From NCBI RefSeq assembly GCF_009730915.1, contig NC_052479.1, positions 30,753,610 to 30,817,609 of the forward strand: a stretch of DNA of 64,000 nt. Reading direction: 5' to 3'. The translations under genes were made by a program, and so were the position numbers. This document shows, one piece after another, positions 6,111 through 60,509 of the stretch. Position 1 is the first letter of the stretch. Each line of letters begins with the position of its first letter. This DNA is from Dioscorea cayenensis subsp. rotundata (lineage: Eukaryota; Streptophyta; Magnoliopsida; Dioscoreales; Dioscoreaceae). The notes below the pieces were generated by a model that worked only from the letters and a program-made list of their open reading frames with translations, ran no database searches and had not been told where the DNA came from.

Positions 6111-7592
6111 CCCAGTCCTCAGATCCGCAGCAATCCGGCCATCTCATCCGATCTAGGGTTTCCAACAACGCTGGGTAACATAGAAACACCACAACAGCTC
6201 ACCGGACTGATCCAAGCTGAGGACGCCGCCGGCTATCGGAGAAAGAGGGAGGAGACGGCCGCGATAGAGCACCAGCGATCGGAAACCTAGAAAGAGAAAG
6301 AGAGAGATGAGAGAAACCCTCGATTTGGGCGAGCTTGAATGGCAGGGGAAGGCCGGTTCTTAAAGGCAACCAGATCTGCCCGTGCTTTTAACGGGCAAGA
6401 TCCTGACCGTTGATTCAATCTCAGATATTGATCTGACGGTGGTCAAGGTTTCTTCCTGCCCCAAAGGATCTGCCCATCCAATCTGTCACGGACGGCGATG
6501 CCGACCTCTGATGTACACGTGTCAAGCATCGGAGTGGGGACCGCATTCGGGGAGCTTTTCCTTTTCGTTTGGGTTTCGCGTGAATTTGGGCCGCTTGACC
6601 CGTGCGTTTCCCGCCCCCCATCCAATTATCCCAAAAAGCCCGTAAAACCGACATGAAACCCGACATTGTCTACGTGGCACTAGCAAGACGAGGTCCCACT
6701 AAAAACGGACCATTTCATTCAAGCTTTTATCTGGACCGAGAAAAGGGACCCAGAATGTGGGGCCCTGCCCTGTGGGTTGGGAACGTTCCACTGGACTGGA
6801 CAATATTAAAACTAAAGAAAAACTAAAATAAATGCATAAATATTAATAAATTATTTGTTGCAATAAGTGGTATGTACATCTCTGTCAATCCAGTTACAGT
6901 GGCATGGGGATGCGGGCATTTATAAACTATCTATAAAAATGTGGACAATATACATATATATATATATTTATAAACTATCTATAGTTCTTATGACATGATA
7001 AGCAGGCGAGAAGATGGTCGTTTTCGGGGGTTCACTGTTTGGGTCCACATAGGAGCGGGGTACTGAATCTTATAATTTTTCCCGCCAAATTTTTTGTTTT
7101 TGGGATCTGGGGAAGTTCAAAAAGGGAACAAATGTGTTTGACGGTGAGGTTACCGAGATAGGTGAGTTTACCCGACGGCGTTGGATGCTAATGATGCGCC
7201 TCCATGAGATGTTTGTGTTGATGATCTCGAGGCATCCGAGAGTACGTTTTTTACTTTCACCTAAAAAAGAATTCACCGAACGTTAAATTTGTTTTTCAGT
7301 TTTTTTGGGATCCAACTAAAAGGGCTTTTTTTTAATAAATTATTATTATTTTAAATGAAAATAAACACATCAGTTGTTGAGAATGAGATTATAAATTCCA
7401 ACAACCAGACCAATTAATTGATTTGACAATAACTCTTTTGAGTATAACTCTTAACATGTAATATGTTCCATCTAACAAGCCATTCCACCTATCACGTATA
7501 GATCTTATCAGAGAATCCAAAAACAATGACATGGAATTACATCTAATTGGAGAAGAAAATATATATATATATAAATGTTGTGCTTGTGCATG

Positions 7593-18095: not shown

Positions 18096-20404
18096 TTATG
18101 GCTCTGTTCTATCAGATGCCAGCTTGTCCCATGCCCGCACATCAGTTGCAGGCATATTTTCCAAGTTGAAACAGGTGCCCATTCCTGTACCCTGAAGCTG
18201 CATGTCTGTTTGCATGCTGCTGTTAAAAGCTTCTGCTTCCTCCCTGGTTAGTGGCAGGACTTGCTGCCCTTGTTGGAAGGGAAGGTGTGTGTTCATCATT
18301 GGAATTGACCCGTTATTGATGCCGATGTGGTTTTGAATTAGACTGTCTAAGCCGAATGTAAATGAACTCCGAACAACCAGATCTAGCATCTTTACCTTAA
18401 TTCTCAGAGCTTCGACACCTGATCTGAGTTCGTGATTATCCATCACAGCCTCACTGAACTGTTGGTTAGCATCTACGAGTTGTTTATTCAGTGAGGTCTT
18501 CTGTTCTTGTAGTTGATCAACCTGATAAAACATCACTATTATATATATATATATATATATACATTATCGATCTGATATACAATATGGAAGAGTATAATCA
18601 GTTTTGTTACCAGCAACTGAAGATTGGCCAGGTGAGCCTGCTTCTTCTCCCGGGATTTCCTCGCAGATTCACGGTTCGATTCCATCCTTAAAAAACACAA
18701 ATCGATTAGGACTTAAAATTAGGAGAAGGTAAATTATTAGAAAGGAAGGCTGAAATGTACATATGTAGTTTACCGTCTAATGCGTTTAGAATCATGCGTG
18801 AGTGTGCTCTGTTCAGAGGAAAAACCAAAACCAGTCTCAATTTCTATTGTTTCATCGTCTGATTGCTCTGAACCACTTGATCCTCCTATGCTACCTTTGT
18901 TATTTGGCTTCAAAATTGAAGCTGGACTTTCAACTATATATATATAGACAAAACCATCAGTGCAAATAATATAATATTAATATGCATGAACTAATAACAG
19001 CAATTTGTTAATTAAATTGGTCATCCTATGCTACCTTTGTTATTTGGTGTCACAATTTTTCTAATGCAGCAGTATGGATTAAAGGAGAGTATTGAGGGTG
19101 ATTAATGTAATGTATTTACTATTTAGAGAGCCTTTAATGTATTCACAGGAAGGCAGGAGGGTAGTCTTTATTATAAAGAATGACAAGGATTGGCTTTTTC
19201 TGGTGGTGTATATTAGATTTGGTGAGCTTGTAATTTTTTAATCTTTCAACAGATGAAATACAGCAAGTTGTTTTTATGAGTACAGTAATCATTTGAACTG
19301 CAATACTGGTAGGTTTTTATTGTGTAGATGGATCATGGATGTAAGTACTATAATCATTTTACATTGCTTGTAATACTGATGTAATACTGGAGAATGGTAC
19401 TAATATGTTGTGTGTTTTCTTGCTGTGGGCTTGACTAAAATGTACACACACACACACACACAAATATACAGACGTATGCATGTATGTATGATTATTAAAT
19501 TAATTAAAGAGATAAGTATAGTATTACCATTTATGTACTGAGTCGGAGACCATGTTTCAGTTTTTGTCACTGTTGATGTATCAACAGTATCTTCTAAAAA
19601 TATGTCCACTATGTCCTGTTTCACAAACATCACAAATCATTTTTCATAATTATTATTATTTTTTATTACAAAACTATATAAAAAAGCAACAAAATTATAA
19701 TATTTAGGTCATGTAAACTATAATTATATAACTAAACATACATAAGCGGAACACGAATCTTAATTAATTAGTATGATTAGCATGCCTCATCTATAAGAAT
19801 AATAATTAAAAACTTAAAATTATTTCTAATTAGAATAATCAAATATAAAACTACTAATATTTTATAATTTTAAATTCCTAAACTATTTAAAACTTTTGAT
19901 ATATATATTGCTACATAAAGATAAAGGGATATAATCTAATATAATACATTGAGATATGTTTTATAAGATGAAATAAATAATTAGGAGCATATTGAAAGGT
20001 ATATAACTACAAATGAAAAAGACCAATCAATATATACTGATTAATTAATATATATTTAAAAAAAAACCCCAATATTACGTGTGCAGCAACCAGCAATGAA
20101 GGCTATGAAGCACAAGCACGGAAGCACCAAATCTAAACATGTTGTGCATGCAGCATGCACGTGGCGCATGTTCAGGAGTTAATAAATAAAACCAGAGATA
20201 TATATATATATATATATATATTATATTATATTATGTAAAGCTGGATGGAGATGGAGATGGAGATGAACTACTACTAATACTACTCACCGTGTCGAAGTCG
20301 GCGAGGTCGAAAAGATCAGCTCCGGCGAGGTTCATCGCCGCCGGGAAGGACCTGAGAAACTCTTCCAACTCTTCCATGTCCCTTACTGATGAGCTTCTCT
20401 CCAT
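18096..20404 (-). CDS. Group C bZIP transcription factor (Opaque2/bZIP9-like), 288 aa
   Basis: Nuclear basic leucine-zipper factor. Group C members bind ACGT-core elements and dimerise with group S1 bZIPs in nutrient and seed-storage regulation. Minus-strand exons are 20404-20288, 19615-19528, 18933-18774, 18686-18611 and 18521-18096, with all phases closing. The N-terminus is acidic/hydrophobic (MEELEEFLRSFPAAMN). A Ser/acidic patch (GSEQSDDETIEIETG) precedes the basic region RIRRMESNRESARKSREKKQAHL at about residues 118-140, with the invariant Asn and Arg. A long zipper begins LQLLVDQLQEQKTSLNKQL and continues through VEALRIKVKML, typical of group C. No long upstream-ORF system like that of group S1 was recognised. 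The paralogue is uncertain. Confidence 0.88.
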
Positions 20405-20890: not shown

Positions 20891-23726
20891 TATTTTTTAT
20901 TTTTATTTTTATTTTTTTTAATGAAAAGTGGATAAACCACTAATTTATTGAGAAAGAAAAAAATAGTACATGGATAAAATTCTCTCACCAGAAGTGAAGG
21001 AGAAAGGTACAATAAAACAGAGAAAGGAAAATAAAAAGAGGTAAAAGTTTGTTCAGGCGGAAGACACCGTCTGGCATCTCAGGCCTGGTCAGAAGATCTG
21101 GTGGTGCGACAACTCCTATGGGGTGTCTTGATCGAGTTCGCCAGGAGGATTTGATGCTTTTGCGCTGAGAAAGTCAAGAGAGCGCTTGATTTTCTGTGAT
21201 GCTTCATTGAGTGTTTGTTGATGTCTATCCGCTGCTGATGAGAACCATGAAAGAAGCATATTAGAAGTTTTAAAGATTATGTTTAAATGTGGTAAAGCAG
21301 TCTGTTGAGTTCCTTTCAAGCCAAATATTCCATAAAATTGCACAGGAAATGAGGTCCCAGAGTGGTCGGAGTTGAGGTGCAAGGGACAGAATCCAGGAGG
21401 TCCACAAGAGCGGGATGGTTTGTAGGAGAGAAGATGAATCTAAGGATTGAGTAAAGAATGCCCAGATGCGTTTGGAGAATTCGCAATCGATGAAAAGATG
21501 TTGAATGTTCTCGGAACCGTTGTGACAGAGAACAGAGGTGTCAGTGGAATTTTGAAAATTACAATCTTTCTTGAATAAGCTAGAGAGAGTAAGGATCTTG
21601 TCTTCTCCAGCTAGCCAGCAGAACAGAGTGATTTTGCTAGGTTATGACTCTTCCAAAAAAGGGGGTACAGTGGGCTGCGGGTTTCACCATCAATAAGATA
21701 TTTATAGAAGGATTTAACTGTGAAAGTGCCACTTTCTTCAAGGTTCCAATTAAGAGAGTCATTCTGTGTGTGGGAACATTCAGGGATAATATCAAGAAGG
21801 GGAGATAGCGTGCCTTGCGTGGCGGTATGAAATATGTGGTATGTGTTATTAATAAATTGTGAGAATTGCCTGATTGTTATCCAAGGAGCTTTACAATCAT
21901 TGAAAAGGTCAGGCCAGCGGTCTCTTAGTAGGATTTCTACGTGCCAACGGTCAAACCAAAGATAGGTATTGGAGCCACTATTGATCTTTTTTGAAATACA
22001 AGATCAGAAGGAGGGAAGAGTAGAAGTCACACCCGCCCAGAAAAAAGATTTATTTCTAGGTGGGTTATGGAAAAGGATTCCGTTTATATCTCTAAAAGAG
22101 TAATTGGCATGAATAATTTTGGCCCAACCACAATTTGGGTTGCAAGAAAGTTTCCACCACCATTTTCCAAGTAAAGCATTGTTGAAGGTCTGAAGGTTAA
22201 CTATACCCCAACCACCCATATCTCGCGGTCTAGTAATCCTATTCCAGGCAATTAATCTGATTCTTTTGGGACCCAAGTCAGGGCCTCTCCAGAGAAAATC
22301 TCTCCGAATTTTGTCAATTTCCTTGATTACCCATGCGGGAAACTTGAAAACCGACATCCAGTACACAGACATAGAGGAGATGACAGAGTTTACAAGAGTT
22401 AAATGTCCACCAAGCGATAAATAGTTTGCTTTCCAGGAAGTAAGCCTCGAGCGTAATATGCCTGTGATAATAGCCCAGTCATTCCGTCTAGGTCGTCGAC
22501 CAGAGAGAGGAATACCTAAGTAAGGATTGGAAGGCTGCTACGGGAACAATTAAGGATTCTAGCAGAGGAGTGATGGGGTTGGAAGCTGTAGTTAGAGGAA
22601 AAGAGGCAGCTTTTAGAATAATTAATTGTCAAGCCAGAAGACCCCTCGTAAAGATACAATATAAGTTTAATGATTTTTAGGTCTTCATATCCTCCAGTAG
22701 AAAAGATTAGGAGGTCTTCAGCATATTGGAAGTGACAAATGCTATCAGCATGATTCAGAGGAACCCCAATCAAGACTTTGGATTTGAGCGCATGGAAGAA
22801 CATAAGGCTTAAAACATCAGTGACCAGGGCAAAGAGTAAATGAGAAAGGGGATCATCTTGCCTTAGACCTCTTTTACAACGAATGTAACCCTGGGTAGTT
22901 CCATTGATAATGAATTGAGCCTTTGCAGTGCTGAGAATAGAGTTGACCCAGGAGAGCCATTTAGGTCTAAAGCCTCTTGCAGCTAGGATTTCAAGTAGGA
23001 AGTTCCAGTCTACTGAGTCAAAAGCTTTTGCGAAATCAGCTTTAAAAATGTGACCAAGGCGTTTTCTTTTTTGAAGATTGAAAATGACTTCTTGAGCGCC
23101 AACAATATTGTCTGCAATACATCTGCCCTTAATGAAACCAGATTGTGCATCGTCAACCAGTAAACTGATTACTGTACTAAGACGATTAGCAAGTATTTTA
23201 GAGATGATTTTACAGGTGGAATTGATAAGGCTGATGGGACGAAAATTCGCAACATTGATAGGCGTATTATTTTTAGCAATAAGAGCGATATGAATCCAAT
23301 TAATACGCTCAAGATTAATGGTACCCTCGTAGAAGTCTTCGCAAAGTTTGACAATTGAGGGTTGGAGTATGGTCCAGTGTTTTTGAAAAAAGAACATGGG
23401 GAAGCCATCCGGACCTGGTGATTTGTCGGGGTTGAGACCAAAAACTGCAAGTTTAATTTCTTCAAGAGTGAAAGGAATTTCAAGCTGTGAGAGATCAATT
23501 CTTTCCTTATGATTAAAAAGGAAGTTCCAGTCAATGAGGAATCTGTTTGGTAACGAGGTGCCAAAGGCTGAGCGGTAGTGGTTTGTGAAGATTCTACCAA
23601 TATGCTCGTTGCCAGTTATCCAATGATCCTCCTGAAGAATACGAGGGATAAGGTTTCTATTTCTTCTTCCGTTAGCGACGTGGTGAAAGAATTTTGTGTT
23701 AGAGTCCCCTTCTCTAAGCCAAGTAA
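20891..23726 (-). mobile_element. 5'-truncated LINE (non-LTR retrotransposon)
   Basis: The minus strand encodes an ORF2 remnant. It starts just before WLREGDSNTKFFH and runs through reverse transcriptase to a zinc-binding zf-RVT tail. It ends in an A-rich tail (minus strand, about 20891-20920). Near-identical 12-bp sequences TGCTACATGATT (20879-20890) and TGCTACACGATT (23727-23738) flank it, as expected for a target-site duplication with one later change. Endonuclease and ORF1 are missing, which indicates 5' truncation on insertion. Confidence 0.85.
20950..23726 (-). pseudogene. Decayed LINE ORF2: reverse transcriptase and zf-RVT remnants
   Basis: The longest intact piece is 23397-22516. It has LSPGPDGF-type context before 23397, then NFRPISLINSTCKIISKILANRL, ADFAKAFDSVDW (motif A) and GLRQDDPLSHLLF. 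Motif C reads YAED instead of the usual FADD/YADD, so a catalytic Asp is lost. Downstream, 22372-22004 holds the conserved FLWRGPDLGPKRIRLIAWNRITRPRDMGGWGIVNL block. The zf-RVT region lies at about 21900-21100. Frameshifts and stops separate these pieces, so the protein is not functional. Confidence 0.85.
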
Positions 23727-23738
23727 TGCTACACGATT
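23727..23738. repeat. LINE target-site duplication, copy 2
   Basis: TGCTACACGATT lies at the truncated 5' end and pairs with 20879-20890. Its last bases may also belong to the element through microhomology at the 5' junction. Confidence 0.7.
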
Positions 23739-23761
23739 GGGTATATATAACTTTCTAGCTC

Positions 23762-27182: not shown

Positions 27183-29270
27183 CTAAGATAAAATCCAAGC
27201 TCTGCCAGCTTCCATGGAGAACTTCTTAAGCCTTCCAAACAAGAGAACAAAAACCAAAATCAGCTTCCCTTTGTCACTCCACTTGCCTGACAGACTGATC
27301 CATTTGTCTTCACATGTTTGATCAGGAACTAGTTGTCTTTCACAGCTATAACCAGTTGAGAACCCAACATTTCCATATGCACTGCATTCATTCATTTCAA
27401 GCTTAACAAAATTAATCACAAAACATTTTACCATTAATTCAGTATAAATATTCTTAGTCAATGTTTCCCTTTCATGCATGGTTGGTACTTTCATGAACAC
27501 TACTATATATATATATATATTGGTGAGTCAATGGCTTTATTATTTATTGGTACTTTTGTCAATGGTCCTACTTTTAAAGTCTTAATTATGATTTGTGATT
27601 GATGAGAAGAATTTAAGCAGACAAAAGGAAAAGAAAAGAGAAGAAAAGAAAGGAGGATTAGTTGATGATGAATCAACTTGCCTTACTACTTCAAGAAGAA
27701 TGTTTAAGACAGGGAAATTGAGTGGGTCTTTGGATAGTTTCTTCCTCTCAGTGATGCAGATGGCCATCACAAATATTGCAAGGCATGTGATATGTGAAAA
27801 CACATATTTATGCACAAATGATTTTCTTGTACTCATTCTTTTTCTCTTCTTGTTCTCTGTTTCATCTTTTTCTGAAATCTTGTCAACTTCTTCTTCTTCT
27901 TCTTTGTCTTCTTCTTTTAAGTCAAAAGGTACATATGCAGTTGATCCTGGAAGATACCTGAAAAGGAAAAAAAAAAAGTAAAAAACAGTAAAATGCTACC
28001 AAGTTATACATAAAATGATCATGAAGCAGTGGTGCAAAATTAAGTAAGGAACTCACATCACTATGATGAATAGAATAAGAACAGAAGGAGCAGTGATGGA
28101 GAGATCAAGAGTGCCTTCACCAGCATGCCTCGAGTTCACTGCCATGAACAATGCGTTGACGATCTTCTGGTAAGAAGTCAGTCCATCAAACACTGCTGAA
28201 TTCCAATCCATTGCCCAGTAGAGTGTCACTTGCGCGACGATGAGCGAGATCACAGTCATAGCAAGGCAAACAGTGAGCTTGTTTGACATTAATCCAGAGT
28301 AGTTAACTCTTTTAGAGTTTCTCATAATGTAAGAAAATTGTTCTCTTCTTGTTATCTTTTTCAATGCCCAGAGGATCAGTCTTAGGAATACGGGAAACAA
28401 CGTGTTTCCGGCGAGGATTTGGGGGATAATAATGAGTAGAAGACCGGGGTTTTTCTTAAAGATGACCATGTTTTCATTAGTAGGAATAAGGCCAGCATTA
28501 GCAAAGGATGAAACAGTAACAGAGATGGAGAACAAGATCTTGGGAATACCTCTCCCATTCAGCACATCTCTGGCACTTGAAACAAGGCTCACATAGAGTA
28601 GAATGAAGATAGAACCACTCACATGAATCAAAAAGATGTAACTGAAAACTATGAAGAGAAGATACCGTATCGAGTTGTACTTCTTGTCCTTGTCAATGGA
28701 AGAAGATGAAGAAGAAGAGTTGTCTGAAGAAACAATAACAGCGATGTTTTGGCCAGCTTCAACATGAGTTATTGTATTCATGGGAATATCTCTAGGCTCA
28801 AGTTCGATGTCATTGGCATCGATGCGAGATTCAGTGTTCTCTGGTTTATTGTATTTGAGCTTCCTGAATAGAAGGCTAAGCATGGAAGTGAAAGCTTCAC
28901 CTCCCAAGAGCATCAAGAGAGTCAAGACCACAATTTGGGAGCTTGAGAAGTTCTCTAGTTCGACGCTGTTGAGTCCAGACACTGTCAATGCCGATGCTGA
29001 CATATACAACATATCGACGTATCTAGGACTAAAGGAAGGTTTGCTTGGTTTCAGTGTCATCATGGCCAGAGAGCCTAACAAGCACAGGGAGACAAAGTAG
29101 CATAGTTGAATCCAAAAAGGACTCACATGAAAGGCAAAAAAACGATAGAGCAACGACAAGACACTCCAAAGGTACTTAACGATGCGGGCGAAGCTAAATG
29201 TTCTTGTCGCAAGAATGTTTTCTGCGTCATTCTTCACACGAGCCATGGATGAACTACTGAAGATTGCCAT
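27183..29270 (-). CDS. HKT: HKT cation transporter A (Gly in first filter loop), 562 aa
   Basis: HKT proteins are plasma-membrane Na+ or Na+/K+ transporters of the Trk/Ktr/HKT superfamily, with four membrane-pore-membrane units. Minus-strand exons are 29270-28057, 27957-27682 and 27381-27183, all phases closing. Filter loops: TVSGLNSVE (Gly99, codon 28976-28974), [28 protein letters not shown] and [13 protein letters not shown]. Class I HKTs usually have Ser at the first position; Gly there is associated with K+ permeability in class II. Two in-frame Met codons (29270, 29246) could start; the first is chosen. Intron 2 begins with GC, not GT. Acidic inserts lie after loop 1 and in exon 2. The gene is a tandem neighbour of HKT B; K+ transport is inferred. 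Confidence 0.9.
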
Positions 29271-31388
29271 TCCTTCAGAGAATGGAGATATAGCTTGTTA
29301 TTGCACTGTGCAAGGAGAATGGATCTGAATGTATATTTATAAATAGGAATAGAGGTCTTGGTTTAAGTTTATATATTATTCAGAGATTTAGATTAAAAAT
29401 GAAGACAAGTTTACAATGTAAGAACTTTGTACAGTGATTAGGCGTGCATGCACACATCAACAGATCGATTAATCTTTGAACTGTTAATTTGTTATTTCTG
29501 CAGCATGACATAGATGAATTTGTCTGATACTTTATATAGTATTTCAATGTTTCAATTGGAACATTTAGCAGTAACTCCATTGACTATGGCTGAAGCATCG
29601 CAATATGGCATGGATTAACCTGATATGCTATTTTTAGTAATATGATGTTTCAGTTGAAGGTTATACTAAATTTAATAGTGGTTTCAGTAGAATGATTGCA
29701 TTAATTTAAGGAAAAATTAGGGGGAAAAAAAAGCAATTCTTCAGTGCATTTAGCTGTTGTTGCAATCTATGGTTACTCTACTTAATTTGCTGTTGTATGT
29801 TGAACAACCAACAGGAGACAATTTTGTGCCGACCATTTATTTTTTAATGCTCATTTGCTTGTCTATTGGTTTGTCATGGGATCTCACACTTAAACAAAGA
29901 ATACTTTTCCTTAATGTGATGAAAAGAGGGCATATTCAGTTATAACTTTGTACTCGTTGTCCTTTTTCATCCTATTTTTAGTGATTTGAGTACTATAACT
30001 CCTTTGTCTATAACATTGATCTTCAGATTCAGTTTTCTGTTATCTTATATGTGCTGCAAACATTCAAATCTGCAGGAAAAAAGAAAAAAGAAAAGAAAAA
30101 GAGCAACAACAGCTGAAAAATTCACCAAAAGAATGGAATAGTAGTCAATTAGCGAAGTTCCTGATTTTCGACTATCACTTCCATAAAAAAGTTGATGTCA
30201 TCTCTGCTCTATAAAAATTGTGAGAAAACTGTTTTATTAGCGTTGAGTTGTTTTGGTGCAACACTGCAGAAAAAGCAAGTCAGAGGATGGAGGAAAGCAC
30301 AGTATGTCCTTCACAACTGAGACAAAACTTGAATTTTTTTTTTCACTATGTTTTTAGTTGATTTATGTAGTTTTCTGATGCTACTGAATGATGATACATC
30401 CACATTTACTCACCAAACAATTAAAAAATAAAAAAAAAGGAGTTTGTATTGTACCTAGCATGTCCTTATTTTGTTTCAACTGAATTCTAGGAATTGTGAA
30501 GTTGATATTATAATTGAAAAGAGCATGATAGGTCTGACTTAAAAAACAAAAAGAAGGTACTATTAGTAAGTTCAGAGCCTTATCCTTAAATTTATATCCA
30601 TTTGTTATATATATATATATATATATATATACTTTCTGCAGTTCATGTCACAGCACATGAATTTAAATTATCTTCTTAAGACTTTGTCCTCCCTTTGCCT
30701 CTCTTAAAAACTTCATATTCTGAGAAGAGCCATAAATGGTTTGCTTGTTGATGTTGACCTTAGAATTCCACTCTTTCAATCTTACAAACAAAAAAACAAT
30801 GTAAATGATAACATGTTGACAAAATGCTTCCTTTGTTTCTCCTTCAACCCTTCCAATCAAACCGATTTATCGGCCTTTTTTTAAGATGAAAGGTTTATTT
30901 TTTGCCTTTTTATTTGATTGATTATAATTTTAATTTTTTTTTAACAAAGTTGATTGAATTGATTATGATGTTGCAGTGTCCAATAATGCAGTTATTCTAA
31001 CAACAGAGCTGACTTTAATATTTCCAAGATCAATAATGCTACTTGTTTAAAGTTGTGGACCATTCCAAGCCTCAATTATGCAGGTTTTTTAGTTCTTCTC
31101 ATGCCAATGCAGACCATACTGCCATTAAACTAGTCATATTTCTGAATTTTACTGCATTCATCTCTGCCAGCAAATATATTTCTTATATGTGTATACATAT
31201 ATAAATCCATGGAATAAAATTCACTCAATTAAGACAATTTATCTCAAATTAATGCGACAAATGTGATTGATTAACTTTAATTGTTCTCTGAATTCACCTG
31301 CCCCTTTAAGCACCAGAGGGACACTAAATCATCAATATCTCAACTTAAGTACATTCATTAGTTTATACATATGTATATGTATATAAGA
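29271..31388. other. Intergenic region between the two HKT genes
   Basis: About 2.1 kb holds the HKT A promoter and the HKT B 3' flank. No gene is recognised. An (AT)n tract lies at about 30609-30630. The frame at 30663-30860 on minus looks non-coding. This is the likely space for HKT A-specific control elements. Confidence 0.5.
29334..29341 (-). promoter_or_regulatory. Candidate TATA box of HKT A
   Basis: The minus strand reads TATAAATA about 64-71 bases before the ATG at 29270, a plausible distance for a short 5' UTR. HKT B has an equivalent motif at a similar distance. Confidence 0.45.
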
Positions 31389-31683
31389 TTAGCAAAGTTT
31401 CCAAGCTTTACCAGCATGCATGCTGAACTTCTTGAGCCTGCCAAAGAACATGATAAAGATGAGGATGAGCTTTCCTTTGGTGCTCCATCTGCCTGAGAAT
31501 CCAACCCATGAATCCTTACAATTTGGATCAGGTTTCAGTTGCCTTTCACAGCTATAACCAGTGGAGAATCCCACATTCCCATATGCACTGATCATGAATT
31601 CAAATTCATTAATTACCATGAAAATCATATTAACATTCCAAGACATGCATTAATATGTTACTGATTTGTTATGCTATTATTGC

Positions 31684-31719
<36 letters not shown>

Positions 31720-33107
31720 CCTGATGATTTCAGTGGCTATGTTTAGGACATTGAAGTTGAGAGGATCATGAGAGATGCTTTTCCTCTCAGTGATGCAGAT
31801 CATGATGGTGAAGATGGAGAGATTGGCTACTTGTGAGAACATCAAATTCTCAATCAAATTTAATTTTCCTTTATTTGCATCATCATCTTCTCCATCTACC
31901 TCTCTTTCAGCCGGGAGAAAACATGTATATGGAGGAAGATACCTGAAATAATAAACCAACAAACAAACAATTTCAATATATATATATATATATATATATA
32001 TTGATGGCCATGCATACATGGTTATATAACTTGTATATAAACACACATCATCACTAGATAGAGGACCAAGATGGCAGGGGAGATGGTAGAGAGGTCCACA
32101 ATGGATTCTCCGGCATGTCGGGAATTCACTGACTGAAACAGAGCTCCGACGAGCTTTTGATAAGCATTCAGTCCTTCCAAACCCTCTGAACTCCACTCCA
32201 TGCAACAAAAGAGTATCATTTGTATTACAATAAAGCCAGCCACAGTTAGAGCTAACATTAGCACTGAATGCAAACCAGGAAACAAGTGAGCGAAAACCCC
32301 ATTAGTTTTATCCTTCAAAATATAACCAAACTCTTCTCTTCTAGTGATTCTCTCAAGTATCCAAATCAAGAAGCTCAAACATGCAGGGAAGAGAGTGTTT
32401 CCAGTGAGAACAAGAGTGATGATCATGAGGAGAAATCCAGAGTATTTCTTGAAAACAATCATGTTCTCATTGGTTGGAATGAATCCACAGTTTGTGAAGG
32501 ATGAAACCACAGAGAAGATGGTGAATGTGTGCACATTGAGTCCCTTGCCATGCAACACTCGTCTTGCACTTGGAATCAAGCTCACATAAGCAATGATCAT
32601 TGCATAACCACTTGCATGGATCAGTATAAAATAAGCCAAGATAACATGGAGTAAATATCTCATGTATTTGGACTTCAAGTACTCTGAATTGGTTGTGAGA
32701 CTAATAATATTGTTTGTTTTCTGAGATTGTTTCAAGAAATACTTGTTATTGACATGTAAAGTGAGCATAGAGACAAAAACCTCTCCACCAAGTAGCATCA
32801 AGAGAGTGAGAACTAAGAGTTGGACATTGGAAAAGACTTCCATTTCAATGGTGCTCATGCTTGAGACAGTGCTGGCAGAGACAGCCATGAAGAAGACATC
32901 TAAGTTGCTTAGCTTAAGAGATGAGTGTTTGTTTGGCAGGAGTTTGAGAAACAGAAAGCCAATTGAGGAAATAAGTATGAAGTAGAAGAGTTGAATCCAA
33001 AATGGATGAAGTTTGACAAATATATAGTAACAGAGGAATGAAATATTAATGGAGAGATTTCTGTGGAGAGATGTAATTCTCTTATGAAGAGAAACAAAGA
33101 AGTTCAT
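31389..33107 (-). CDS. HKT: HKT cation transporter B (Ser in first filter loop), 493 aa
   Basis: Second HKT gene, upstream of HKT A on the same strand. Exons are 33107-32047, 31942-31721 and 31587-31389, all phases closing. Intron positions and phases match HKT A. Filter loops: TVSSMSTIE (Ser83, codon 32861-32859), [28 protein letters not shown] and [13 protein letters not shown]. Ser/Gly/Gly/Gly is the class I pattern, which is Na+-selective in characterised plant members; those retrieve Na+ from xylem. Conserved hydrophobic blocks include [23 protein letters not shown] and the C-terminal [25 protein letters not shown]. Both introns use GT-AG. The protein is more compact than HKT A, lacking its long insert after loop 1. 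Confidence 0.93.
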
Positions 33108-33932: not shown

Positions 33933-36900
33933 TCACAATATCTGGGCACAATCTCCAGCTTCACAAATCAATACAATCTTGTCTTGTTTAAGCTGGTTCG
34001 CTAGCTTGGGCTGAACTTTTGGGTATTCAAGTTTCACAAAAGATGCTGCTTCCTCGGCACGATCAGCATCCACCAATGCTAGGCAGCAGCCTCTAAATCC
34101 AGCTCCACTGAAGCGTGCTCCATAAACTCCGGGAGCCCTTACGAGGATTTGGTACAGTTGTATCATTGGCTCACAGCCTGAGAATAACAAACAAACAGAC
34201 AATGCTTGCTTCTTAAAGAACAATTTCAGTGGGATGACACATTGATTCACTACTTCAGGAGATGGAATTGAAACATAGATGATGGGTGATAGAAACTACT
34301 ATAAACAAAAGATTACCACATTCATAATTCTCTATGGAACTGAGGCCGGAAGCAGATATGAGCTTTCCAAAAGTTTCAAGTTCCCCAGATGCCCATGCTT
34401 TTAGTCCTAAGAAAAGGCAAAAAATCCAAGTTTAAATGTGAACCCAATCAAGGAATAATATCATAAAATCAAAGTTGAAATATAGTTGTGTACCTTCCTT
34501 AACCCGAAAATTTTCTGTGAAGTAATGCTTTGCTCTTTTTGCTAGATTTGGCTCTAATCCACCCTGAAACCAGAGGAAATAAGAATAAGAAGTAGATAAT
34601 ATGATGATCCTCTGATCATTTTATGCTAAAGAGACAGATTATCTTCAGCGGTTTTTATACTTTCACACATCTAGATTCAGAAACATAATGCACAAGTTAT
34701 TTTAAATGAAAGAAGTAAGAGAATCAGAATGATGATACAAAAAAACAATATATGAAATCCAATGGAGATGCAATGCACACAGAATTGGAGCTCGCCAATT
34801 ATCAAAATGTAGCATAATCTTAAAGATGCTACCACTAGCCATGGGATGAGCATAATGAAGCATGATAGAACACCTACCTTATGAGCTTCATATGTGCTTG
34901 GATCAACTGCCAAGATGATAATAGAAGTGGTCAGATTGACAATTACAAAGCATTTCTTAAAAAGTTAAGTTAAAAATTTTCTTGATTACCATTGCAAAGA
35001 AGAGGTTCAACATCCTCATCACCTGAAGCACTGAATGAAACACAAGGAGAACACATTGCAAGCTACATGAATTGTCAAAATAAATAAAAATAGACAAGTA
35101 ATAATATGCAGTAGTTCACCATCCAATAAGGGGAGCACTGATCACACTAACATCAAGTTTGTTAGATAAAATTATGAAATTGAGTCGATAAGTTTGTTTG
35201 TTAATCCAGGCTTAGTCGATAAGTTTGTGAGATGAAATTATCTACTTAATGCATTCTCTAAGTTAAATACTCTATTGTCCTGTGACAAAAGCAAAGAATG
35301 TTACCATAAAAGAAGTCGAGCGGCCTCTTGGCATTCAGAAACTCGAGAATTATATCCAGGGTTATTTGCTAAAGCATGCTTCAACCCTGAAAATGCCAAT
35401 AAAATCTTGTAGGCTCCGTGACCATTTAATCGTTGGTTTCCTTCCATCTCGAAAAGGCGCACAAGGTTGTGTTCCTTCGTCTATGCAAACAAAATTTAGC
35501 AATTCTCACAATCAACAAAGTGTTATAACATCAAATTAAGTCAAGAAACTTTTCTTGCATGCAGTGGCAGCTAACACTTGGTCAAGTAATAAACGCTTAA
35601 ATAGTCATTAATGGCCATTTTTCTCTCATGGATCCATCACCACTGCCACTAACATGGCTCAAATATAGCATTTTGGATATCTTGCGGGACTACAATATAA
35701 ATGAATGAGAAAGGCACCGCCTAAGTTAAAAGAACAGATGGTTTTGCTGCGTGTGAATGCCTTTATTTCAAAAAACATCAATATAGGTTTGGAGTTAGAA
35801 CATAAATTGTTGGCTTTCTTATACATGCTGTATGATGTAGAAGTGTGGCCCAATCGGATTTTTAGGATTACAGACTATACCACTGCCACACATAAGAACT
35901 GAAATGGCAATCTCGCCTTGCAGATGGGGAGCTCACCTTGCAGTTCATGCGCATGAGACAACCGTATTTAGAAAGCAGTACCGCTGACTGATCAAGAATA
36001 CCATTTCTCAGACCCAAGTATTCGTTTTCAATCAGTCTGCATGAACAAAAAGTCTTCATACCGTAAGCATGAAAATGTGTACCTTCTGCAAATAAAGAGG
36101 CTTTATTCTGTGCAATTGAAAGTGAAAAACCTCAAGTAACAGAGAGAGCATTAAGCTTAACCACGGTAACCTAAATAGTAGAAAATACATGCATGTGACC
36201 AAGTTTGTTCGCATACACATGAATGACAGAATTATATTGTGAGATCAAGGATCTATTTACTACCAGCTGAATCTTCTAGATAACGTCCCACAGAAGTGAA
36301 AGTCATATCATATAATTTTTGCAAAATTTAAGATGTTACCTGGCTGACAAAAGAAGAACACAGTATAAAACAACATTTTATCAAAGCCGCCACAGGTTAA
36401 TGTAGTGGACAAAGAACATTATTTTGACTATTATAAAAAGATCAAGAAAGAAACTTTATGGTAAAATTTTCTTCAAGATATAAAGTGACAACATTGGAAT
36501 TCAATCTGTTTGCAACATATGCACCAATGGCTACACAATAATAATCTCGGACCCAAAAAAAAAGTGGTTCTAATGTACGTTAGCCAAGCTTATGTTTAAA
36601 TTTTAAACAGCAAGAAGGTGTATTGGAAAGTCAAGTATCAAAAGAAACCAGTCAGAAACCATAGCCATAAAATGTGCTCAGTGTCATTCAGGTATAGCAG
36701 AAACAAGCATGGAAAAGCATTAAATGGCCAGAATGTACTGAACTAGTACAAACAACAGTTCCATCAAGTTGTACATGATTGTTAATACTTCTGAAAATAT
36801 TACCTGTCCAGCTCAATATTATCTGTTTGGGATACAATTAGACTGTTTGCATTTTCTAAAGCCAAAAGGTAAGCAACCCCAACCTGTTCATCAAGAAGTT

Positions 36901-39548
36901 AGACAGAATCAATTCCAGATATTATTCATAAGCATGCAAGTATGCAACAATAAAGGGAAAAGCTATACATAATTTGATTTCTATTGTTCTTTCTTTAAAC
37001 TTCTAGATACACACACTCAATTCATATCTGAGTGATCACTTATCATTCATAAACAAAAAAATGATGCAAGAGAATCTTAGAGGCCAAGGCAACAAAAATA
37101 AATAAATAAGTAGATAAATAAGCTTCACAGATCCTTCATAGTAGACCAAAAGATAGGTCCATACTTATCGATTAAAAAATTCTAGTAAATAAATCAGTAT
37201 ATAAAGAAGAGAATTGCTTCTTTGAGACAATATTTTTAAATTCTTTTTAATAGGTTCCAATGAATCTTTAGTGCGATGTATATGAAGATAAACTTACAGC
37301 TGCAGAAGAGCTAAGCCCAGAACTATCAAGCCCATCTGAGCCACAAATGAACCCAATAATACCCTGTAACATTTACAGTAAAAAGAATTAAAGATGGGTA
37401 GGAATAGGCGTTTCTTCCATGATAAAAACTGTAAGAAAAGAAAACCATTTTTTTTTAATGTGGATGCATTTAATTGTATTTATAAGATATGAATAACCAC
37501 AAAATAAAAAGCATTTTTAATTGCTTTCAAATAGAATATTGTTATAGAAGTTTGCACCAACGTATTCTGAATTTGCTAAATGAAGTGATGTAAATTAAGC
37601 CTGCAAATACCGGCTCTCAATATATGGGACTCACTAGATTTCATAAAATAGTGTGAAGTCTAATATATGGTCTTCAATGCCTCATAGACAAACTGCATTC
37701 AACGGTAAGTGGAGTTATTTCAGTTTTAATAAATCCATCTGCTTTGTTTCAACAATTCTAAGCCTTCCTTGTGCCTATTCTTAGATGCTGAGCAAGATGT
37801 GTTTGGCCCAATGCTCAATGCTCAACATTGATATGCTATAGTTTTTAATTGCAGAATGACAGCAGCAACAAACTATTATGGTATAACCAACTTTAATCTT
37901 ACTTACCCCAATGAGTCTACCAATCACTTCTCTTGGAACATAGCAAAAACAAAAGGAAACACATACACAAGTGCCTTAAAGGAGATGATAATTGTAGCTC
38001 AGATACAAAAACAGCAATAAAATATCTTGTCAAACCTTGTCTAGGTGAAACCCTCTCCTTTGCAATGCATAAACAGCACCTCTAGCATAACACCCCCAAT
38101 CCAACTCTTTGTTGCAACTTTTAGATGCACCATTCTCTTGGGCAGCTGTTGAACTCCTTGGTAGTTGTGAAACATCAACTCTGCAATTCCCAATACAAAA
38201 GATGGCACAATTAAATTATTTTTTTTATGGTTGATGATTTGGTTAAAACACATCACAATATGATGCTATAAAGATGGCACAATTAAAATTTTTTTCTTTA
38301 TGGTTGATGATTTGGTTCAATGAGATAATAAGTTGCAAATTATTTCATTTTTATTAGTTGGTTCTCATGGTTTGTTAACCCATTCTCCACATCTGTATAT
38401 GTCTTTTCAATAAGTTGATCATCCTTAGAGTTGTAGTAAAAAACATCTTACTTGAATCTCACATCTCCATCAAACTGACCAGACTGCAAAATAATCTGAC
38501 CATCATCAGAAGGAATAAAGCCAAGAATTATCCCCTTGTTGATAGTCATAGCTGAAACAATCCCACCCTGTAACAAATTGAAGAAATTAAGGAGGCGCTT
38601 GATGCTTGTGATTCTAGACAGACAGGAGAGAAGATTCTTACGTCTACTAGATTTGACCAATAATCATGAAAAAGCATTGCACTAAATAAGATAAAACAGA
38701 AGATGCCACTTGTAGATAATGGACATTGTGCAGGGATCAACTGACTACTCTCAAAATTGGAGGGCACTGCAGCAATGACATGATACCGATATAGCTACAG
38801 TAATGACAAATCTCACCAGGAAAAATAAATAAATAAATATTTACCAGAGCCTTAAAATTGTTGGTGATTAATTATAAAACATGATGATAGCATCGGAGTT
38901 ACATAAATGCAACTTAGACTGAAAATGGTGAACACACACAAAGTAAACAAAACAGAGTTTTTCAAAACTACATAGAACATTTATTTGGTTATGGAAAGCA
39001 AGGGGAATCACACTCCAATGGAAAATGTACACTCAAAATCTCATCTGCACACGCCAAATTAGAATAAACAGAACAAAGTAAGTAAATAAATAAATAAATA
39101 AAAACAATATGGCAAGTGACACTTTGAAACCTGGTGATCAATGTGGGCTCCCAGTGGGCAAATTCTGTATGGAGAGACAACAATCCTCACATCGCCAATG
39201 TTTCCTCCACTCATTTGGACTACCCTCTCTTTCACAGCATTTACCTGGCAATCCCACACAACACACCGTATCACTCCAACAAAATCACCACAGAACTATA
39301 AACGAAATCAATCAAATCACCATTAAAGACACGAAACTCAGCAAAAAACAACAAGTCATACGCCCGATTTACCATTTTTTACCTACTTTTCTAAAACCAA
39401 AAATTTGAAGAAGCATCATATATAATACGCTCATTGATCATAAAACAAGTATTAATCACAAGTAAATAACATTACAACAAGATCAAGATGGAGTTTTGGA
39501 TCAACGATTAGTTACCTCCACTGTTGATGGCCATGAAGAAACCCGCAT
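33933..39548 (-). CDS. GALAK: Galacturonokinase (GHMP kinase), 434 aa
   Basis: Cytosolic enzyme that phosphorylates D-galacturonic acid with ATP to galacturonic acid 1-phosphate, salvaging pectin sugar towards UDP-GalA. Thirteen minus-strand exons: 39548-39516, 39244-39131, 38567-38452, 38180-38036, 37363-37298, 36883-36804, 36036-35937, 35480-35305, 35030-34990, 34906-34878, 34563-34494, 34406-34317, 34177-33933. They close in frame. The sugar-binding motif RICPLGAHIDHQ lies at residues about 38-49. The GHMP ATP loop GLDSSGLSSSAA lies near 147-158. GARFSGAGFRGCCLA lies near 373-387. Galactokinases have a different N-terminal signature; the closest recognised family is plant galacturonokinase. 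The start is the only ATG before the first donor. Nothing looks broken. Confidence 0.93.
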
Positions 39549-40601: not shown

Positions 40602-43600
40602 TCATAGTACTACTACACGTACGTGATTACTGCAGCTAATTATTTGTTCATCTCCTACGACGTCAACAGCTCTTAATTTTCCAGTTGGTTCCCCAGGAAC
40701 AATGTCAAGCTTGTAGAGAATAAAAACCATGGAGATAGAACACAAGAACACCAAGAGTGGACCAAAGATCCACAAGAGAAGAGGGACAGCAGTGTAGAAG
40801 AGCCTATTCCCCAGTGTGCTCAAAACAAACCCTCTGTCCATCATGTCTAAGATGTACCACTCCTGCATCTCCGGCGACACACCGACATCATCGAGGAAGG
40901 TCACTGGAATGTTTATGAGGAAGTTAACTTGGTTGATGAGCCTAATAGAGAGAGTATAGAACAGGAATGCCAACAGGAAGATGATGAGTATCATCACATA
41001 TTTGAGGGCCATCATCAGCTCTCCATGAGCGCCAAAGACGATGTCATCGACCGCTTTCTTGACGGAATATGTGCTGCTGATGATGGCTGCCAAGCCGGAG
41101 CAAAAGAGGATGGATGTGGTTGCCATTAGCGTTGATCCCATGATGGCATTCCTTAAAGTTTGCACAGCCAATATGTTATTCTTCTCATTATCCTATATAT
41201 ATATATATATTATACACAAACATATATATATATATATATAGTGTCACGTCCCAGCCCCACAGCCGGGCCCGCGGACAGATCGGCCGCATCCAATGGGACT
41301 GGGCCCCACTGGGTGCAAGGCCTCAGCTAAAAACCTGGTCAGAGTCAACCCTAACAAGCAAATATGAATAGAACATAAAAGCACAAATAGGGTACTGAAA
41401 ACTGACATACTACAAGTACGGGCTTTAGCAGCCCTACAGAATACAAATACAATCCAACAGTTTGCATAGTACAAATACAGTCAGAAAACAAGTCTTACAC
41501 TCTCAAGCAGGTAATAACAAGATACTGATAACGCAGACAATACGACTCTCTGACACCCTCCCCAGACCTAAACTTGATCTTCTCCTGCGAAAACAGAATA
41601 CATAGAGTGCATGAGCCACAAGGGCCCAGTAGGATCGCAGATAAACAACATGTATAGCAGATATTGCAGAATAATAGTTCATGCTTCAAACAGAATACAG
41701 AAAATACGCAGAATACTGGAATAATCCAAAAACACGAAAAAATACGCAAATACATCTCCCTCGGCTAATAGCAAATCAACAAAGACGAGGTCGGATCTTC
41801 GACTATGAAGTCGGAACGAGCAAGCGAGTAACGAATATCAGCAGTAGTAGCCGGGATCTTCGACCGCGATCGGGGGTAGCGCTACTACGAAAAACATGTG
41901 CACATGGCTAGGGACTTACTCCTCCCTAGTCTGGGCGAGCAGAAATGGAGATGTACTAAAAACCGCAGAAAAATACTGGAATACAAATAGAGGAATTACT
42001 GAATAAATAATACAAATAAGAAAATAAATAAATAAACATAAATACCACGCAAATAAATAAATAAATAAATAAAATTATTAAACAATGCAATAATTAAATA
42101 ATAATTATTGCCAGAAATACGGAATTATACAGTGCGAGAGCCTACCTGGCTCCGAGCTACCAAGTTGGGTTCACCAAGTCCCGCGAGCTAAGACTCGCTA
42201 CAATAATCTAACCCAACAAAAATAAACTACACTCAGGGAATAATTCTCGATCTGGGCCTAACTTAACTATTGCCCAAACTTTACATAATAGGAATTAAAC
42301 AACAATCTCCTAATCACCAAGGGATAAATAATAACCATATTTCAAGCCATGATCGAACAACCATGAGTATAAAAAGTATTCACATGAAAAATAACAATAA
42401 CATGAATGATTAAAGACAATACCATGCTTATATAACAAAAATGTTAATAAATAACAATTAACTTATAACATGGTCTGCACACTCACACTTTCAAGTTTAT
42501 TAACATGAAAACGTATCTCTAAAATAATTTAGAGCATGAATGTTAGTTTACAGGTCCAAGTTTACATGATGCATATAAAAATATCATAACTAAACTAAAG
42601 AAATTCTTTGGTTTCATATAAATTAATAGCAAGAAAAAATATACTGAGATAATGCATTCTAAAGAAATTCATTATCCACTAAACCAAACATGCTTACACA
42701 GGTTGTATGTAAAAAAACTAAATCCGAAGTCATGATGATATAAAAATAAGAACATGATAAAGCAATTAAAGTGTGGAAAATTTTTAGAAAAATCAGATCT
42801 TAAAATTATTAAGCTCTTAGCACACTTCTAAAAAAATCTCATGCTTACGAGGCTTATAATTCCAATACAACATGATTTAAAAAAATCTGAAAATGTATGC
42901 ATGCTTTCATAAATATGTATATACATGTAACATCAACTAAAAAAACCCAATTAAAGCTTTTAACCATCATAAGATTCAAGCAACCAAGATACTACATGCG
43001 AGCACAATCACACTTGCAAAAAAACAAAAGATTCATTTACAAGCTATAATATAACCAATAATAACCCGACCAAAGAGAACCATAATAAGGATGAAAACCT
43101 TGAATCTTGGAGAAGAAATAAGTCCCAGTAAAACTCCGATTCTCTAGCGACCCTAAGAGTTCAAGGTGATGCAACCAATCCCTCTTCACAAATAAACTCC
43201 TTAGCCAAGAAAAACCAAGGTTTGGGTCGCTGAACAAGATGAAGAAGAAGGAGTTTATTCAAGAAGCTACACACACACTCACTGCCCAGACTTAACAACT
43301 CAATAATTGAGCAAACAGTAACCCCGACCAGATCCGCTAATCAAGGGATTAAGAAAAGTTGTGGGCTCCCAAACAAGCACAGTCAAAGTCAAAGATGAAG
43401 AAAAAAGGAATTTTACAAACCTTACAATCTTCCCCCCTTGAAAAGAGTTTAGTCCTCTAAACTCGCATCAAGAGTCGGGGAACAACTCGGGATAATGATC
43501 TCTCAAGTCGGCCTCTCGCTCCCAAGTAGCTTCATCCTTCGAGTGGTTACTCCATCTGACCTGGATTAATGGAATCACTCGGTTCCCTCGCTGTTGCTCT

Positions 43601-46600
43601 TTGTAGGCCAGAAACTCCGCTGGTTGCTCCACATAAGACAGGTTCTTCTGAAGCTCCACTGGTTCATGCTGAATGACGTGCGATGGATCTGACAGATACT
43701 TCCTCAGCATAGAGACATGAAAGACATTGTGGACTCGAGCTAGATCGATGGTAGGGCCAACCGATGGCGGCGACTGACTCGCTCCACAATCTCAAAAGGT
43801 CCGATATAACGCGGGTTGAGCTTCCCACGTTTTCCAAATCTCACAACACCCTTCATTGGAGATATCCTCAAGAAGACTGAATCGCCCATCTGGAACTCTA
43901 TGTCGGCGACGCTTATGCGCATAACTCTTACGTCGGCTACGGAGCGGTCTTCAATCGTTCCACGATCGGTTTCACTTTCTCTTCTGCAATTTGCAACAAT
44001 TCTGGACCCAACAGCTTCCGTTCTCCCACATCGCTCCAACATACAGGAGATCGACACTTCCGCCCGTAAAGAGCCTCATACGGTGCCATCTGAATACTAC
44101 GCTCGAGCCCGCTGTTGTTAGCAAACTCCGCCAAAGGCGGATAAGCGGTCCCACGAATCAGAAAAATCGAGGGCACATGCCCGAAGCATGTCCTCCAGAA
44201 TCTGAATAGTCCTCTCAGACTGGCCATCCGTCTGTGGATGAAATGCTGTACTGAAAGTCAATCTGGTACCCAAAGCTGACTGTAGACTCCTCCAAAATCT
44301 TGAGATGAATCTCGAATCACGATCAGATGTGATAGACACAGGAATCCCGTGCAGTCGAACAATCTCTCCAAGGTACAACTCGGCTAGCTTTTCAAGACCC
44401 AAACCAGGTTTCAAAGGCAAAAAGTGCGCTGACTTAGTTAGGCGATCTACAATCACCCACACAGACTCATACTTCCGCCGAGTACGGGGCAAACCTGTCA
44501 CAAAGTCCATCGTGATGTGCTCCCACTTCCACTCTGGTATCGGTAACGGCTGAAGGTAACCTGCCGGTCTCTGATGCTCTGCTTTAACCTGCTGGCAAGT
44601 AAGACAGTGGGCAACAAAAGTAGCTATCTCTCGCTTCATGTTGTTCCACCAGAAATGTTCCTTGAGTCCCCTATACATCTTTGTACCTCCAGGGTGGATC
44701 GTATAGCTTGAATAATGGGCTTCCTCCAGAATATCTCTCTTCAAATCAGGATCATCAGGGACGCAAATTCGATCTCCAAATCTGATAGTACCATCCTCAT
44801 GCACTCGGAACTGAGACAACTCTCCTTCCTGAAGTTTAGCACATAACTCTTGCAATTTGGGGTCCTGCATCTGAGCCTCTTTAATCCTCTGCAACAAATT
44901 CGGTCGAATGTGCATGTTGGCCAGACTAATCTCAGAGCTTGGCGGAACAATCTCCAACTCAAACCTTCTCATCTCCTCCAGAAGTGGTTTCTGCTCAGTC
45001 AAATCTGCGGCGGTTCCATAATTGTACTTCCTGCTTAGTGCATCAGCCACCACATTGGCTTTGCCTGGATGATAGTGAACACTGAGGTCATAGTCCTTGA
45101 TCAGCTCCAGCCACCGCCTTTGCCTCATGTTCAACTCTTTCTGAGTAAAGATGTACTTTAGACTCTTATGGTCTGTGTACACTTCACAGGGCTCTCCATA
45201 CAGAAAATGCCTCCAGATCTTCAGTGCAAAAACAACTGCTGCCAACTCCAGATCATGGGTAGGGTAATTCTCCTCATGAGGTTTCAATTGCCTTGAAGCA
45301 TAAGCAATGACTCTACCATTCTGCATCAGAACACACCCCAAACCTGTCCCACAAGCATCACTGTAGATCACATATCCACAACCACTTTCTGGCAAGGCAA
45401 GAATTGGTGCAGATATGAGCCTACGCTTCAACTCCAGGAAACTCTGCTCACAAGCTTCAGTCCAGGTAAAACGCGCACCCTTTCGGGTCAGTCTCGTCAA
45501 CGGTGCTGCTAGTCGAGAGAAGTCTTGTACAAACCTTCGGTAGTAGCCAGCTAAGCCAAGAAAGCTCCGAATCTCTCTAACTGTACTCGGTCTCTTCCAG
45601 TCCACGACTGCTTCCACCTTCTTGGGATCCACAGAAACTCCATCCTTGCTGATGACATGCCCCAAGAAAGCCACACAATCAAGCCAGAAGTCACACTTGG
45701 AAAATTTGGCATACAACTCATGTTGTCTCAAGGTCTCTAGTACTATTGTCAAGTGCTTCGCGTGCAGTTGCTTGCTTCGTGAGTATATCAGAATGTCATC
45801 AATGAAGACAACTACAAATCGATCCAAGTAGCGCCGGAATACCCGGTTCATCAAATCCATGAACACTGCTGGGGCATTCGTCAGACCAAACGGCATCACC
45901 AGAAACTCATAGTGACCATACCGGGTACGGAAAGCACTCTTCGGGATATCCTCACCCTTGATTCGAACCTGATGATATCCAGATCGCAGATCAATCTTGG
46001 AGAAGACTTGAGCTCCCTGCAACTGGTCCAAGAGATCATCGATCCTCGGCAAAGGATACTTATTCTTAACCGTCACCTTGTTTAACTCACGGTAGTCGAT
46101 GCACAATCTCAAAGATCCATCCTTCTTTTTGACAAATAGCACTGGAGCTCCCCAAGGTGACATGCTCGGTCGAATAAACCCTTTCTCCAACAGTTCCTCC
46201 AGTTGCTTCTTCAGTTCCTTCAGTTCAGTGGGTGCCATCCGGTACGGTGCTTTGGATAAAGGATCTGTGCCTGGAGCCAGATCAATGGCAAACTCTACCT
46301 CTCTCGTAGGAGGTAACCCGGGAAGATCCTCAGGGAAAACATCAAGGGAACTCGTGACGGCAGCAGTGCGTGCGCTCACGTGCATCCGGTGCGAGTAACC
46401 TCAGAGGCGAAGCCGGGAAAAGCCAGCGCAACCACTCTCGATCGACCACGAGCTTGCAAAGAAGAGATCTCTCGAACTAGGGTGTACCCCTTACTGCCAC
46501 TGAAGGTGAAATCTTCCTGGTCAGGAAAACAGAAGTGAACCTTCTTTCTGCGACAATCCACTACAGCGAACACCGAAGGCGACCCGGTCCATGCCGAGAA

Positions 46601-60420: not shown

Positions 60421-60509
60421 TTCTTGTTGTTTACCTGTTTTCCTCATCTGTTTGCTGAATGTGCTTGATTATTCTGGGTTTCTTAGTTTCTGGGGTTCTA
60501 TTAAGTTTT

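Follow-up and report, generated by a model that had tools for sequence, protein, structure and literature searches.

Adjoining class I and class II-like HKT genes in yam, as predicted from sequence

We investigated a 64-kb stretch of the yam Dioscorea cayenensis subsp. rotundata (contig NC_052479.1, positions 30,753,610 to 30,817,609; 64,000 nucleotides, 37.9% GC; hereafter, the window), which contains two HKT transporter genes, HKT A and HKT B, both on the minus strand in head-to-tail order and separated by 2.1 kb. The reading that we favor, with a probability of about 0.68, is that they form a pair separated by an old split inside the HKT family, in which HKT B would be a class I transporter of the Na+ type and HKT A a class II-like transporter of the Na+/K+ type.

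Gene models, filters and class affinity

The two genes were modeled as follows (window positions; aa, amino acids).

HKT A, whole gene: 29270-27183, minus strand; three exons, 562 aa
HKT A exon 1: 28057..29270, minus strand; codons 1-404 and part of 405, with pore loops 1 (Gly99), 2 (Gly260) and 3 (Gly384); from the open frame and a splice model, donor GTGAGT
HKT A exon 2: 27682..27957, minus strand; includes the pore helix of loop 4 (NILLEVV); acceptor TTTTCAG, GC-AG type donor GCAAGT
HKT A exon 3: 27183..27381, minus strand; carries the filter residue Gly503 of loop 4, the final helix and the stop codon; its sequence resembles class I
HKT B, whole gene: 33107-31389, minus strand; three exons, 493 aa
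HKT B exon 1: 32047..33107, minus strand; pore loops 1 (Ser83), 2 (Gly208) and 3 (Gly333)
HKT B exon 2: 31721..31942, minus strand; GT-AG introns at both ends
HKT B exon 3: 31389..31587, minus strand; carries the filter residue Gly434 of loop 4, the final helix and the stop codon

Neither spliced frame contains an internal stop, and intron positions match between the genes. Three of the four introns are GT-AG; the fourth, intron 2 of HKT A (27382-27681), is GC-AG with the donor GCAAGT, whereas the corresponding intron of HKT B is GT-AG. A pseudogene reading was considered and found no support, both frames being intact, with the GC donor confined to intron 2 of HKT A. A scan for bacterial-type promoters upstream of HKT A returned 0 sites, which is uninformative for a plant gene. 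Both proteins matched the Pfam family TrkH (148.1 bits for HKT A and 113.4 bits for HKT B; cut-off 27) and, in a PDB search, solved HKT structures (E = 1.7e-157 and 2.3e-150, respectively), and both carry the four pore loops with an S/G-G-G-G filter by which plant HKTs are recognized. The filter of HKT A consists of Gly99, Gly260, Gly384 and Gly503, and that of HKT B of Ser83 (in TVSSMSTIE), Gly208, Gly333 and Gly434. A preliminary description of this DNA had already reported the contrasting loop 1 residues and Gly in the other three loops of both genes, and our models agree with it on each; its span for the pair, 27183-33107, is bounded exactly by the stop codon of HKT A and the HKT B start codon. 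It had also singled out the sequence NSVELEN of HKT A as unusual. In an alignment of eight HKT proteins (HKT A, HKT B, three class I chains and three class II chains), four of these seven positions (Asn, Ser, Leu, Asn) are indeed unmatched in the seven other proteins, all of which have Met in place of the Leu.

Sequence comparison placed the two genes on different sides of the family. The PDB search listed eight HKT sequences, four of class II (two being forms of HKT2;1) and four of class I (three being fusions with an insert, which lowered their scores). Against these, HKT A scored 497.8-528.8 bits with class II and 337.2-437.8 bits with class I, its top match being HKT2;2, and HKT B scored 401.9-504.7 bits with class I and 381.4-397 bits with class II. 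In the eight-protein alignment, 24 columns were fixed within, and different between, the three class I and three class II chains; HKT A had the class II residue in 14, the class I residue in 5 and neither in 5, and HKT B had the class I residue in 16, the class II residue in 1 and neither in 7. HKT A was 48.1–51.2% identical to class II, 41.3–46.8% to class I and 45.7% to HKT B in the same alignment. As one passage of PMC12703196 swaps the names of the two classes, the usage of the other papers is adopted here.

The pore loops carry the marks of these classes. OsHKT2;2 (PDB 8k69) and TaHKT2;1 (PDB 8w9t), whose prefixes we take to denote rice and wheat, share with HKT A the four-Gly filter, S-G-L in loop 1, Gly-Leu in loop 2 and the loop 3 helix NAxFMxV, at 51.2% and 48.1% identity. 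The best matches of HKT B, namely HKT1;5 (PDB 8y6n; presumably from wheat) and AtHKT1;1 (PDB 8w9n), share with it the SGGG filter, S-S-M in loop 1 and Gly-Phe in loop 2, at 52.0% and 50.9% identity. In HKT A, loop 1 fits the class II motif [T,S,I]-G-L given in a passage of PMC3410407, and the Leu beside the filter Gly of loop 2 (NAGL) and the loop 3 helix (NALFMAV) are both described as class II features in the cited passages of a review (PMC7918770). In HKT B, the class I marks stand in loop 1 (VSSM) and loop 2 (NCGF). Its loop 4 departs from the class I motif EVxSAYGNVG, having every motif residue except Val; the nine residues of this motif are conserved in >80% of sequences, and the motif is highly conserved in class I, according to a passage of the same review (PMC7918770).

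According to passages of PMC3821619, the four pore loops of an HKT make one filter, in which Ser in loop 1 restricts K+ and Gly admits it: yeast grew at low K+ with AtHKT1;1 S68G and OsHKT2;1 S88G, and did not with AtHKT1;1 or OsHKT2;2 G88S. On this pattern, Ser83 of HKT B would pass Na+ and largely exclude K+, and Gly99 would keep the K+-type filter of HKT A whole, letting both Na+ and K+ pass. PDB scores and alignment predict what the preliminary description put forward, a Na+-type HKT (class I, SGGG) standing next to a Na+/K+-type one (GGGG). In passages of PMC5513949 and PMC3821619, HKTs are described as retrieving Na+ from the xylem and as serving uptake when K+ is short. By these class roles, HKT B may retrieve Na+ from the xylem, and HKT A would probably act as a Na+/K+ transporter under K+ scarcity.

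Age and rooting of the pair

Over 521 residues, HKT A and HKT B share 45% identity. In exon 1 their synonymous sites have reached saturation (proportion of differing synonymous sites, pS, 0.750), and synonymous divergence (dS) amounts to 1.5 for exon 2 and 1.39 for exon 3. A recent local duplication is ruled out by this identity and by the saturation of exon 1. The pair would instead descend from an old split inside the HKT family, for which an old tandem duplication would be the simplest origin.

An unrooted tree of the eight proteins placed HKT B with the three class I chains on one side and HKT A with the three class II chains on the other (support 100/100). This split leaves the place of HKT A undefined, because HKT A, class I and class II join at one node, and a bacterial outgroup was therefore added. 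It consisted of four very distant Ktr/TrkH proteins (H1, H2, H9 and H10) chosen from 13 matching plasmid records, the other nine being left aside; from the unannotated Arthrobacter record, the longest stop-to-stop stretch was taken, which may carry extra N-terminal residues. A scan of genome contigs with the HKT alignment yielded no closer prokaryotic outgroup, and the chains listed by a PDB profile search were five distant KtrB proteins. In the free search with this outgroup, HKT B grouped with the class I chains (96/87) and HKT A joined class II (86.5/79). We also compared three fixed rootings by the approximately unbiased (AU) test. In the first set-up, p was 0.852 when HKT A was joined to class II, 0.0605 when it was joined to class I and 0.206 when it stood at the base. 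The same data were run in four more set-ups (a different alignment, columns without gaps, exon 1 alone and a different model), which gave 0.0256, 0.0413, 0.151 and 0.0621 for HKT A with class I, and 0.146, 0.230, 0.384 and 0.184 for HKT A at the base. HKT A with class II was the best of the three rootings in all five set-ups, which overlap in data. The phylogeny that the preliminary description had proposed as a check put HKT B with class I; HKT A went best with class II, the other roots not being firmly rejected. A sister relation of HKT A to grass class II is favored but not settled, because the outgroup is very distant.

The outgroup also bears on the direction of change at the filter. The residue after the loop 2 Gly is Leu in HKT A and in all three class II chains, and Phe in all four bacterial proteins, all three class I chains and HKT B; Gly-Leu in this loop looks like a derived state common to HKT A and class II. 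Loop 1 reads TGL in 4/4 of the bacterial proteins, and Gly in loop 1 therefore looks like the older state. This agrees with passages of PMC7918770, in which Gly is found in all non-seed plants and Ser appears first in gymnosperms. If the loop 1 filter changed at all, the change is more likely to have occurred in the class I line than in HKT A.

Several points weigh against reading HKT A as a class II-like Na+/K+ transporter. The rooting with HKT A at the base was rejected in none of the five set-ups (AU p 0.146–0.384), and that with class I was rejected at 0.05 in just two (p 0.026–0.151). The identity of HKT A to class II (48.1–51.2%) barely exceeds that to HKT1;5, a class I protein (46.8%). 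Two class II marks are absent, loop 3 reading GEG in place of GEN and loop 4 reading NILL, without the Phe of NxIF. At position −10 of loop 4, HKT A has Leu where wheat HKT2;1 has Phe463, and Leu is the state of the wheat F463L mutant, in which Na+ transport and K+ affinity were both reduced according to a passage of PMC7918770; HKT A may perhaps have a weakened K+ affinity on this account. The filter rule itself has exceptions, namely OsHKT2;1, TsHKT1;2 and OsHKT2;4 (passages of PMC3821619). Because its feature set is mixed, without GEN in loop 3, we call HKT A class II-like, and not a grass-type class II HKT.

The two absent marks and the unrejected basal root would also suit an HKT A that is a third, early-branching HKT lineage with the old Gly filter, the class I/II split of grasses having come later. 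Passages of PMC7918770, a review, that treat early monocots separately from both classes point in the same direction, and such a protein would still be expected to pass K+, without being class II. However, the basal rooting was the best of the three in none of the five set-ups, and the Gly-Leu of loop 2 looks derived and common to HKT A and class II; we consider this origin unlikely. Far less probable still is the origin offered in the preliminary description, a local duplication after which one copy changed selectivity. Read in class terms, a class I gene would have been duplicated in place and one copy would have reverted from Ser to Gly, gaining K+ permeability. The genes do adjoin in the same orientation, exon 3 is 72% identical between them, and the class I root was excluded in only part of the set-ups. 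Against this stand the overall identity of 45% and the saturated exon 1, the further class II states of HKT A (Leu next to the filter Gly of loop 2, and the loop 3 helix NALFMAV), and the fact that HKT A with class I was the best rooting in 0/5 set-ups. With HKT B on the class I side, HKT A outside it and Gly the older state, the proposal is unsupported.

The last exon of HKT A and HKT copy number

Affinity varies along HKT A. In exon 1, it is 47–51% identical to class II and 42% to HKT B, and in exon 3 it is 72% identical to HKT B, 60–64% to class II and 51–62% to the class I chains. The ratio of columns shared with HKT B but no class II chain to columns shared with class II but not HKT B is 39:101 in exon 1, 7:12 in exon 2 and 12:7 in exon 3, and the counts of exons 1 and 3 differ at p = 0.0034 in a post hoc Fisher test that excludes exon 2. 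After the loop 4 Gly, HKT A has Phe, whereas the four bacterial proteins have Leu (three) or Met (one) and all three class II chains have Leu.

These observations suggest a mosaic gene: a class II-like HKT A may long ago have had its last exon overwritten by gene conversion from its class I neighbor, in which case its loop 4 filter and last helix would behave like those of class I. This would supplement the old-split origin rather than replace it. The tilt of the column counts toward HKT B in exon 3, the closeness of that exon to HKT B and the Phe unlike all four bacterial proteins and all three class II chains argue for it. Conversely, the comparison was devised once the pattern had been seen and leaves out exon 2; a tree of exon 3 that groups HKT A with HKT B and HKT1;5 is poorly supported (88.6/57), and a tree of exons 2 and 3 leaves HKT A outside class I (89.9/72). 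The dS of 1.39 in exon 3 excludes a recent event, so any conversion would be old, and grass class II may itself have diverged in this exon. We regard the mosaic as possible, and put it forward tentatively.

We searched the assembly (584,211,761 bases in 2249 contigs) with the Pfam TrkH family and both HKT proteins. There were two TrkH matches, and the two protein queries matched seven exon pieces each, all on contig C9 at 30.780–30.787 Mb. Each protein query recovered the other gene of the pair, at 41–67% identity per piece, and any further HKT of either class would therefore be expected to appear. No third HKT gene was present among the best-scoring candidates of these searches in the 584 Mb assembly, which is possibly incomplete. 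As far as found, the HKT set of this assembly consists of a single class I gene adjoining a single class II-like one.

Locus context and relation to known HKTs

Two multi-exon genes flank the pair.

33933..39548, minus strand: GHMP-kinase gene upstream of HKT B, less than 1 kb away; GHMP_kinases_N 36.9 bits and GHMP_kinases_C 39.8 bits; exons joined by eye, 5' end uncertain
18096..20404, minus strand: bZIP transcription factor gene downstream of HKT A, about 7 kb past its 3' end; bZIP_1 36.0 bits; exons joined by eye without the middle exons, 5' end placed by eye

We take the GHMP kinase to be galacturonokinase-like. A galacturonokinase gene may also stand close to rice HKT1;1/HKT1;4, but a literature search for those locus names returned no paper, and the rice locus is not used as evidence here; a single neighbor type in common at an HKT locus gives weak support for synteny.

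Other frames lie around these genes. A reverse transcriptase frame occupies 22517-23754 (minus strand), between the bZIP gene and HKT A. Upstream of the GHMP-kinase gene, 40602-41192 (minus strand) is a DUF599 open frame (178.3 bits) whose match begins at profile position 46; the absent first part could lie in an upstream exon or could have been lost to damage from the adjoining element. Beyond this frame, 44121-46400 (minus strand) encodes reverse transcriptase, RNase H and integrase zinc-binding domains of a long terminal repeat (LTR)-type element. On the plus strand, retroelement frames are found at 58926-59810 and 60459-61775 (DUF4283 with a zinc knuckle, and endonuclease-like, in that order) and at 61779-62438 (reverse transcriptase). 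At 4644-6143 (minus strand), a frame encodes a bromodomain and a BET domain and has a long run of glutamines. Elsewhere in the assembly, contig C14 (about 1.23–1.57 Mb) and contig C801 hold a cluster of alpha carbonic anhydrase/dioscorin-like gene pieces, some with stops. Two dioscorin-like pieces are 92% and 93% identical, over 71 residues, to the dioscorin of known structure, and one translated carbonic anhydrase piece scored 105.4 bits with dioscorin, the tuber storage protein of yam, versus 39.9 for the next chain listed.

Tandem HKT genes are common elsewhere. The cited passages describe them in rice (HKT1;1/HKT1;4 and HKT2;1/HKT2;4), Amborella, Cinnamomum and Nymphaea (PMC12703196, PMC4181754). 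The rice pairs each lie within one class, whereas the yam pair runs across classes, and class I and class II genes of rice are reported not to stand together, unlike those of yam (passages of PMC4181754). The HKTs of mosses and club mosses, a proposed third class that includes PpHKT1, resemble HKT A by description in having Gly in loop 1 (a passage of PMC7918770), and PpHKT1 admits both K+ and Na+ to yeast (a passage of PMC3821619). Compared with OsHKT2;2 and TaHKT2;1, HKT A is set apart by its loops 3 and 4 and its class I-like last exon.

A literature search found no paper on yam HKTs in the library covered; among the papers listed, one review (PMC8775971) contains both words, once each. Neither tandem HKT pairs nor class II HKTs in monocots are new, and a passage of one review sets early-monocot HKTs apart (PMC7918770). 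Dioscorea is a non-grass monocot, and we do not claim HKT A as the first class II HKT outside grasses. Measured against the cited literature passages, what appears to be new is an HKT set of one gene of each kind standing next to each other, together with the mixture of class marks in HKT A.

According to passages of two reviews (PMC7918770, PMC5513949), only monocots are known to have class II HKTs, and one of the two leaves open whether the classes split before or after the origin of monocots. A speculative and rather doubtful scenario is that the yam pair keeps the founding layout: classes I and II would have been born as tandem neighbors before yam and grasses parted, grasses separated and multiplied them, and yam kept one of each, their closeness allowing the class I gene to overwrite the final exon of its class II neighbor. 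With an HKT set that, as far as found, is one class I gene adjoining one class II-like gene, yam offers a simple system for dating the class split. HKT A naturally carries the loop 4 replacement of Phe by Leu that was engineered in wheat HKT2;1, and the pair allows a test of whether Na+ and K+ handling is divided between two adjoining genes in a tuber crop.

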